Shown here in pieces: positions 1,091 to 4,610 of a stretch of 6,834 nucleotides of DNA (its first letter is position 1; every line of letters begins with the position of its first letter). The position numbers and the translations under genes were made by a program. The stretch comes from a candidate division TA06 bacterium SM23_40 (GTDB lineage: Bacteria > LJUI01 > SM1-40). A model generated the notes under the pieces. That model ran no database searches and had not been told where the DNA came from. It worked only from the letters and a program-made list of their open reading frames with translations. Location: the NCBI GenBank assembly GCA_001303705.1, contig LJUI01000181.1, forward strand, positions 1-6,834. Reading direction: 5' to 3'.

Positions 1091-2499
1091 TAGGTGGACC
1101 AACCCATCTGGAGACGCGGCGCGGCTCCTGACCCGGACGCGGGCCAGGTCTCACCGCTCTCCTCCTGACGGCCCATCCATTCCTCCAGCTCCCGGAGGGC
1201 CCGCTCGGCCTTCGCTTTCCGGCGTGCCTTGCCCCTCACATCCTCATCGGGGGAGGGAAGTATGCCGAAATTCGCGTTCATCGGCTGGTGCCGCCAGGGT
1301 GCATCGCGGGTTACATAATTGAGAAGAGCACCGACCATCGAGGTCAAAGGAAGAACGGCCGGAGGAAGCGCCCTCGCCAGGCGTGCCGCGTTGATGCCGG
1401 CGACGAGGCCGCTCGCCACGGACTCAACATACCCTTCGACCCCACATAGCTGCCCGGCGATATATGTTCGTGCGCGGGCCCGCAGCTCGAGTGTCTGTTT
1501 GAGACAGCGGGGACCGTCGATGTAGGTGTTGCGATGTACGCTCCCATAGCGCAGGAACTCCGCACGCTCCAACCCCGGTATCATTCGGAAGACGCGTCTC
1601 TGATCCTTCCTGACGAGCTTCGTCTGGAATCCGACGAGATTATACATCGTGCAGGCCCGGTTCTCCGGCCGCAATTGAACGACCGCGTACGGCCTGCGCC
1701 CCGTCTTCGGATCTGTCAGCCCCACTGGCTTCATCGGACCGAACCGGAGGGTGTCCTCTCCCCGGCGCGCCAACTCCTCTGCCGGCAGACATCCCTCGAA
1801 GTAGGGCACGTCGCGCGACGCCTCCTCCAGCGATTCGAACTCCCGCAGCGGGAACCGCTCGCCATCGAGGAGTGCAGTCCGGAAAGCCCTGTACTCGCTC
1901 TCCCCCATCGCCGCATTGAGGTAGGCAGGGTACCCGCCGTAGCGTGACGCAGCGAACAGGGCGGCCATGTCCAGACTGCCGGAGGATACGATCGGCGAGA
2001 TGGCGTCGTAAAAGTAGAGGTAGTGGTCGCCGATCACCTCTCCCAGGGCTCGCGCCAGCGTCGCGCTCGTGAGCGGACCGCTGGCCACGACCGTGATCCC
2101 CTCCGGCAGCTCCTGCACCTCATCCCGGACCAGAGAGATCGACGGATGCGATTCGATCAGGTTCGAGATCCGCTGAGAGAACTCCTCGCGATCGACTGCC
2201 AGCGCCTTGCCAGCGGGAACTGAGGTCTGGTCAGCAACACGCATGACGAGAGAGCCAAGCCGCCGGAGCTCTTCCTTCAGCAGCCCGGGCGCGCTCCCCG
2301 GTTCGTCAGAACGGAGCGAATTGCTGCATACCAACTCGGCGAGCTTCGAGGTCCGGTGGGCCTCGGTCATCGTCCCCGGCCGCATCTCCCGGAGGATGAC
2401 CTGGAGACCCCGTTCCGCTATCTGGTAGGCTGCCTCGCATCCCGCCAGGCCGCCTCCAACGACCGTAACGGCCGGCAGCCCCTCGTGGCGCTTACTCAT
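1090..2499 (-). CDS. trmFO: Methylenetetrahydrofolate--tRNA-(uracil-5-)-methyltransferase TrmFO
   Basis: TrmFO is a flavoprotein that makes m5U54 (ribothymidine) in the T-loop of tRNA, taking carbon from 5,10-methylenetetrahydrofolate. The 469-residue product is at the long end of the usual 435-470. It begins with the dinucleotide-binding motif VVGGGLAGCEAA (about 13-24). Family signatures follow: REMRPG (about 37-42), ELVCSNSLRSDE (about 55-66) with Cys58, YFYDAISPIV (about 162-171), PYFEGCLP (about 232-239) with Cys237, FGPMKPVGL (about 253-261), and the C-terminal GGA-type region QLCGVEGYVESVASGLVAGINAA, quoted here in parts at about 350-372, then MNANFGILP (about 407-415). The two cysteines match the conserved pair studied in Bacillus TrmFO. 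The ATG at 2497-2499 lies inside the end of topA (8-bp overlap), with no strong ribosome site, so coupling to topA is likely. A short Gly/Ser/Ala-rich tail (about 447-469) extends beyond the conserved part. Confidence 0.96.
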   Translation of the reverse strand: MSKRHEGLPAVTVVGGGLAGCEAAYQIAERGLQVILREMRPGTMTEAHRTSKLAELVCSNSLRSDEPGSAPGLLKEELRRLGSLVMRVADQTSVPAGKALAVDREEFSQRISNLIESHPSISLVRDEVQELPEGITVVASGPLTSATLARALGEVIGDHYLYFYDAISPIVSSGSLDMAALFAASRYGGYPAYLNAAMGESEYRAFRTALLDGERFPLREFESLEEASRDVPYFEGCLPAEELARRGEDTLRFGPMKPVGLTDPKTGRRPYAVVQLRPENRACTMYNLVGFQTKLVRKDQRRVFRMIPGLERAEFLRYGSVHRNTYIDGPRCLKQTLELRARARTYIAGQLCGVEGYVESVASGLVAGINAARLARALPPAVLPLTSMVGALLNYVTRDAPWRHQPMNANFGILPSPDEDVRGKARRKAKAERALRELEEWMGRQEESGETWPASGSGAAPRLQMGWST

Positions 2500-4018
2500 G
2501 TTCGGTCTCTGCCCCGCACCGCAGACACTTCTCGATCTCGCCCTTGACGCGACTGCGCTTCAGCACGAGAAAGGGCGCCCCGCATTTGGCGCAGCGTGTC
2601 GGGATGGGCTTGTCCCACGTGGCGAAATCGCACTTGGGATAGCGGCTACACCCGTAGAAGGTCCGTCCCTTCACGTGACGTTCCACCAGCTCCCCCTTGC
2701 ATCCCTCTCGCCCGCACGGGATGCCCAGTCCCAGCGGGCGCGTATGCCGGCAATCCGGATATCGGGAGCAGGCGAGAAAGCGTCCGTACCGGCCGCGCTT
2801 GATGATCATCGGCGCGCCGCATTCCTCGCAGACCTGATCTGTTGTCTCCTCCTGCTCATCGAGGGGCCGAGTCTGCTTGCATTCCGGGTATCCCGAGCAC
2901 GCGATGAACTTCCCGTACCTGCCCCACTTGATGACCATCGGCTTTCCGCATGCAGGGCATGCCTCGTCAGTCTCTTCCTGTAGGCTGTTCTTCAACTCAG
3001 CACTGATCGACTCGGCCCTGTCGAGGGTGTGTCGAAACGGCTCGTAGAATTCCCGGATCACGGCGATCCATTCGATATCTCCGGATTCGATTCGGTCGAG
3101 CTCCTCTTCCATCGTCGCCGTGAATCCGATGTCGAATATCTCCGGGAAGTTGGCGATAAGGAGGCCATTCACCGTCTCGCCCAGCTCAGTCGGTGCAAAC
3201 CGCCCTTTCTCCTTCGTCACATAGCGCCTGGTCTGGATGATACTGACTATCGGTGCATAGGTGCTCGGCCGCCCGATGCCCTTCGACTCCAGCTCCTTCA
3301 CCAAGGTGCCCTCGGTGTACCGGGAAGGCGGCTCGGTGAAGTGTTGCTCGCACGTCACATCGACGAGCTCAACGCGTTGACCCTTGGTCAGCTTCGGCAG
3401 CCGACGCTGCTCTCCCTCGCGCGCCCGTCGCTCCTCACTGCCGCCGCGCAACACGAGGAAGCCCTGGAAGGAGATGACGGATCCCGTGGCCCGAAGGGAG
3501 AACCGTCCCGCTCTGATCTCGGCCCGCGCGGTATCATAGACCGCGTTCGCCATTTGGCTGGAGCAGAAGCGCTGCCAGATGAGTTCATAGAGTCGGTACT
3601 GGTCGCGGTTCAGGTACTGCTTGATCGACTCGGGTGTCCTTTCGATGTGCGTCGGGCGAATCGCCTCGTGGGCCCCCTGTGCCGTCTTCTTGGTCGCGAA
3701 CACACGTGCTCGCGGTGGAAGGTACTGTTGACCGAACTCTTTTTTGATGAACTGGCGCACCGCGCCCACCGCCTGGCTCGAGACGCGGGTGGCGTCGGTA
3801 CGCATATAGGTTATGAGTCCAACGCTCCCTTCGCTTCCCAGCTCGACACCCTCGTACAGCTGTTGCGCCACTACCATCGTCTTCCTGGCGGTAAACCGAA
3901 GCCGGCGCGAGGCATCCTGTTGCAGTGTACTCGTTATGAACGGCGGGGGCGGCCGACGCTCTTTCTTCTTCTCTTCGAATTCGTCTAAGCTTCGCCTGAA
4001 ATGTCTCGCCGCTATCAT
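2492..4018 (-). CDS. topA: topA C-terminal fragment (catalytic Tyr and four zinc ribbons, frame B)
   Basis: This 508-codon frame is real TopA from about 3985 to the TAA at 2492-2494. Its first roughly 10 codons after ATG 4016-4018 are out-of-frame reading of the Toprim half. Visible in order are [42 protein letters not shown] with the nucleophile Tyr at fragment residue 71, [32 protein letters not shown], and [20 protein letters not shown]. Four zinc-binding modules follow from about residue 353 to 502. The first two have the classic CxxCG...GRYGxFxACSxYPxC pattern, the third begins CGREGC and ends CSRYPKC, and the last is CAKC...CLRC. No Shine-Dalgarno precedes ATG 4018, so independent translation is doubtful. 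Confidence 0.65.
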
Positions 4019-4610
4019 CGGAGAGCGTTGTCAGGATCGACCAGTACTCGGTCGTCTCGAATGATCTGATCTCCCCTTCCCGCTCGCATATCAACCTGAG
4101 AGCCACGGTCTGAACACGCCCCGCACTCAGGCCTGAGCGCACCGTTCTCCACAGGAACGGACTCACCTTATACCCGACGAGCCTGTCGAGGATCCTCCTC
4201 GCCTGCTGAGCATCGACCTTTCGTTGATCGATCTGCTGGGGATCGGCGAGCGCCGCCTCGACAGCGGCCTTCGTTATCTCATAGAAGAGAATCCGACGGA
4301 CCTTATCGCCGTCCTGTAACTCGCGCGAGATGTGGAACGCGATCGCCTCCCCCTCCCGATCCGGGTCGCAGGCAACCCAGATGTGAGACGCGTCCTTGGC
4401 CGCCGTCTTGAGCTGCTTGAGTATCTTCCCCTTCCCGCGGACCGTGATGTACTGCGGCTGGAATCCGTTCTCGATATCGACACCGAGCTTCGACTTGGGG
4501 AGATCCTTGAGGTGCCCCATAGAGGCCAGCACCCGGTATCGAGAGCCCAGTATCCTCCCGATAGTCCGCGCCTTTGTGGGGGATTCGACGATCACCAGTT
4601 CTCGCGCCAT
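3585..4610 (-). CDS. topA: topA N-terminal fragment (Toprim domain, frame A)
   Basis: This 341-codon reading frame is genuine TopA only to about 3987, where FQAKL ends the recognisable sequence. The remaining 130 or so codons down to the stop at 3585 are out-of-frame translation of the downstream TopA coding region, rich in Arg, Ala and Thr and unlike any family I recognise. The real part holds the whole Toprim fold and the beginning of the domain around the gate. It lacks the catalytic tyrosine, so on its own it could not cleave DNA. If the lesion is real, this is the product made from the native ribosome binding site. Confidence 0.6.

Follow-up and report, generated by a model that had tools for sequence, protein, structure and literature searches.

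We wanted to establish whether the bacterium represented by this DNA has lost its topA gene, which encodes topoisomerase I, a nearly universal enzyme that untwists DNA, and which lies here in two pieces, or whether the gene was broken in the making of the draft genome. The stretch analyzed (6,834 nucleotides; G000:C180:1-6834), referred to here as the window, belongs to a 2.88 Mb draft made up of 189 contigs, with an estimated completeness of 89.8% and contamination of 1.3%. Its fragmentation and isolated position suggest that it was put together from a metagenome. This draft is the sole member of its phylum within the genome collection compared, and the collection thus offered no other genome of the same phylum for comparison of topA. 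All genes of the window lie on the minus strand, and all are intact except topA and a racemase gene truncated by the edge of the window (Table 1). At its extreme end (positions 1-71), the window carries a tandem array of 5.5 copies of the 13-base unit CCTCGCTCACATA; a search for this unit in the other 1.65 Mb of the draft did not find it, and tandem arrays also terminate two other contigs.

The topA gene starts at position 4610, and its coding sequence is distributed over two reading frames, A and B. The homology of frame A to TopA can be traced to approximately position 3978, through FQAKL(RRI) at approximately 3987-3978, where AKLRRI resembles the AKLFKI of relatives; past this point, the frame is non-homologous up to its stop at 3585. 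The match of frame B to TopA begins at approximately 3985, at (D) and the ten residues that follow it, and continues to the stop at 2492. Frame A contains the Toprim domain expected of a bacterial TopA (PF01751, E = 3.2e-18; VESP..K and DxDxE motifs), and frame B contains the type IA core with the active-site tyrosine (PF01131, E = 2e-89; ITYMRTD). The Pfam Topoisom_bac profile is itself divided between the two, with positions 2-103 in frame A and 111-410 in frame B (2-104 and 110-410 in a second search). The gene lacks a single continuous frame, and the region ahead of the active-site domain is incomplete. Across the two halves, the catalytic motifs VESPTKA, DPDREGE, SAGRVQ, ITYMRTD, and AHEAIRP are intact, and both halves share approximately 55-62% identity with their best relatives, which is the most found with any relative. 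Further, the open lengths are considerable (approximately 1,490 nt in frame B and 625 nt in frame A), the coding signal is strong on both sides of the junction, and topA contains no further stop or frame change of the kind that would mark an old pseudogene.

To locate the frame change, we trained a hexamer coding model on 782 long frames from the draft. The best fit put the switch at 3985-3986 and improved on a single frame by 116 nats. When the same two-frame fit, with a calling threshold of a gain of 20, was applied to 300 intact genes, false calls were made in 11, the highest with a gain of 30, whereas simulated deletions of 89 nt were recovered in 291 of 300 cases. We conclude that the frame change in topA is neither chance nor misreading, and the claim of an earlier, sequence-only reading that topA is split in this way into two open reading frames is borne out.

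Table 1. Genes of the window, parts of topA, and lesions counted elsewhere in the draft. Positions are those of the window except in the last four rows.
Feature	Location	Strand	Remark
topA frame A ORF	4610..3585	-	341 aa
topA frame B ORF	4018..2492	-	508 aa
TopA N-terminal part, frame A	3987..4610	-	Toprim and start of Topoisom_bac, by homology
TopA remainder, frame B	2492..3985	-	Rest of type IA core, ITYMRTD, three C4 zinc ribbons, and stop codon, by homology
Frame A out-of-frame tail	3585..3977	-	Stretch given to frame B by coding model
Deletion junction	3973..3989	-	7 nt versus 96 nt in relatives
MurI-like racemase gene (end)		-	Cut by window's end
rph		-	Intact
rluD-like gene		-	Intact
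trmFO		-	Intact
xerC/D-type recombinase gene		-	Intact
Group 1 glycosyltransferase gene	C6, L109:2446-3403, frame change ~3202	+	Profile 82 to 129 across 37 nt
SAM-dependent methyltransferase gene	C20, L123:2459-3165, frame change ~2906	-	Domain residues missing
Gingipain-type (C25) propeptide gene	C3, L106 ~574, contig end	-	Plain frameshift, no residue loss
M14 carboxypeptidase-like gene	C43, L146 ~1316	-	Frame change falls exactly on a 13-nt tandem duplication (ATTACCGCGGCGG twice)

To define the extent of what is missing, we used a multiple alignment of 97 intact TopA homologues as the reference for motif spacing. The distance from the L of FQAKL to the residue matching the F of LDEF is exactly 32 residues in 85 of the 97 homologues and at least 27 in every one; the same interval in the draft topA is 7 nt. 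Likewise, the distance from EYW to xPF is 103 nt in the draft topA and 64 amino acids (192 nt) in most relatives, and it is never below 63 amino acids in those that were correctly anchored. The net loss is therefore approximately 89 nt (96 - 7, or 3 × 29 + 2), and because this is of the form 3n + 2, the frame changes. The deletion of 80-100 nt and of this phase that had been proposed from the sequence is thus confirmed in size, and an equally short linker in an intact frame, which would have made the spacing a normal variant, was seen in none of the 97 homologues. In alignments with solved structures, frame A ends near residue 240 of E. coli TopA and frame B starts at residue 272, so that the missing part corresponds to approximately residues 241-271, which we take to lie within hinge domain II of the E. 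coli structure. Some ten bases (3978-3987) match TopA in either frame, which prevents an exact placement of the breakpoint.

The good conservation of both halves would be accounted for if they were still in use, either as one protein made by programmed +1 frameshifting or as a split enzyme of two interacting fragments, in each case working without the missing piece. Split type IA proteins occur in some reverse gyrases, and a +1 shift at CTT-A-GAC would link frames A and B. However, the joined product would not be full length, as expected for a programmed frameshift, but would still be without the approximately 30 residues that are common to all 97 relatives (at least 27, usually 32). No way of joining the frames supplies these residues, and the earlier view that a frameshift alone could not restore them was correct. 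Further, a long non-homologous tail would remain attached to fragment A, and fragment B has no convincing start of its own: reading by eye, we saw at the junction no start codon accompanied by an obvious ribosome-binding site. We therefore regard continued use of the two halves in either form as extremely improbable.

We also considered that the contig might be chimeric, with the halves of topA derived from two different genomes. The best relatives do differ between the halves, whose homologue scores correlate poorly by rank (0.32); however, the same test gave values from 0.08 to 0.74 for the intact TopA of other isolated lineages, and the two halves agree in composition (GC of 0.60 and 0.61; GC3 of 0.77 in both). 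As the correlation falls inside the range of intact distant lineages and GC and GC3 agree, a two-genome chimera was rejected, and we give it next to no credence.

The sequence around the junction was inspected for traces of the event. Repeats in positions 3900-4080 all fall short of 8 nt. The two CGAAG pentamers that the sequence-only reading had suggested might, along with a purine-rich tract, have promoted slippage or misassembly are present where it placed them, 17 nt apart, but only one copy is left when direct repeats bound a deletion and here both are kept, so these copies do not mark the deletion. Repeat-mediated deletion was accordingly rejected, and neither the pentamers nor the purine tract finds support as the cause. 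The junction contains neither Ns nor a long repeat, nor any other typical signature of a misjoin, a point against an assembly error. No Rfam match that would indicate an RNA element at the site was obtained anywhere in the window. We note that an EcoRI site (GAATTC) and a HindIII site (AAGCTT) lie 10 bases apart at the junction (3977-3992); the window contains two of each, and their placement here is probably a coincidence.

Topo I is said to occur in all bacteria, and E. coli strains null for topA depend on compensatory mutations, growing with changes in gyrase or parC/parE (PMC7140829). We asked which other topoisomerases the draft encodes. A second topA, for which the earlier reading had proposed a search, was not found, nor was any further type IA enzyme (topA, topB, or reverse gyrase; PF01131) in this 89.8% complete draft; there was no match to a type IB topoisomerase (PF01028), and one GyrA-type gene was found. 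These results bear on the view that a real out-of-frame deletion of approximately 89 nt very recently inactivated topA in the sequenced strain or in part of its population. What is missing is a clean deletion of defined size, and such a loss might be tolerated through compensating changes (e.g. a weaker gyrase), given that E. coli topA nulls of this kind are viable (PMC7140829), or through a topoisomerase encoded in the roughly 10% of the genome that is unassembled. Against this, the absence of a second lesion in approximately 2.1 kb of coding sequence would require the deletion to be recent; the draft yielded neither a further type IA enzyme nor a type IB one; and internal out-of-frame losses of similar size are present elsewhere in it. 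We consider a genuine deletion unlikely, although it deserves to be kept in mind. The stronger proposition, that a recent deletion truly deprived a bacterium of an isolated phylum of its sole type IA topoisomerase and left it to live with gyrase alone, appears highly doubtful; if it held, the universality of type IA topoisomerases would be called into question by a natural genome that has none.

The losses elsewhere came to light in a scan for frame changes that covered 1.66 Mb of the draft and in which four other lesions were counted (Table 1). The loss in the glycosyltransferase gene is estimated at approximately 101 nt and, being 3n + 2, is of the same phase class as that in topA; the loss in the methyltransferase gene, estimated from domain length, is approximately 80 nt. 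Other calls proved to be ordinary neighboring genes, such as ScpB followed by an S4/pseudouridine synthase or a 7TM-HD protein followed by YbeY, and were not counted. The broken genes other than topA are of dispensable types. Comparable lesions in the same draft are what assembly error would produce, but pseudogenes are also real in genomes, and four other lesions per 1.66 Mb are compatible with biology; we therefore treat them as supportive of an artefact and not as decisive.

Both halves of topA keep their motifs and coding signal and there is no second lesion, indicating a break that happened very recently, if it happened at all. The fragmentation of the draft, the absence of decay elsewhere in topA, the lack of a substitute enzyme, and the similar losses elsewhere favor an artefact, though indirectly. 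Overall, we conclude that a local assembly or consensus error probably removed approximately 89 nt from the draft and that the organism's own topA is most likely intact; such an error could be, for example, a join closed wrongly or reads misplaced within the one gene. The loss, its size and phase, and the undamaged state of the two topA halves and of the flanking genes can be seen in the window as it stands; we infer that the loss itself is a product of the assembly and did not happen in the cell. The biological loss of TopA that the sequence-only reading had thought would be striking is possible, but, for the fragmentation, the lack of decay, and the similar losses just given, it is less likely than an assembly error. 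With such an error the most likely origin, biological interest in the locus is low unless reads support the junction. The main lesson is that read support is needed before gene loss is claimed from a draft genome; the case also marks this draft as one with several frame-breaking local losses.

Local assembly errors in metagenome assemblies are well described (PMC7111523), and spurious pseudogenes made by assembly are common in public genomes (PMC11017572). The topA case shares with such spurious pseudogenes and local errors of draft and metagenome assemblies (PMC11017572, PMC7111523) a conserved gene that is pristine but for one frame-breaking lesion, a fragmented draft, and more lesions elsewhere; it differs in that their defining test is read support, whereas topA was judged here on the consensus sequence. 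Compared with bacterial TopA (PF01751, PF01131, and PF01396), the draft gene has a broken frame and is without approximately 30 residues (approximately 241-271 in E. coli). Spread over its two frames, however, are the Toprim domain, the catalytic core, the active-site tyrosine motif, and the three C4 zinc ribbons of that family, and the two halves match solved TopA structures of E. coli and T. maritima.
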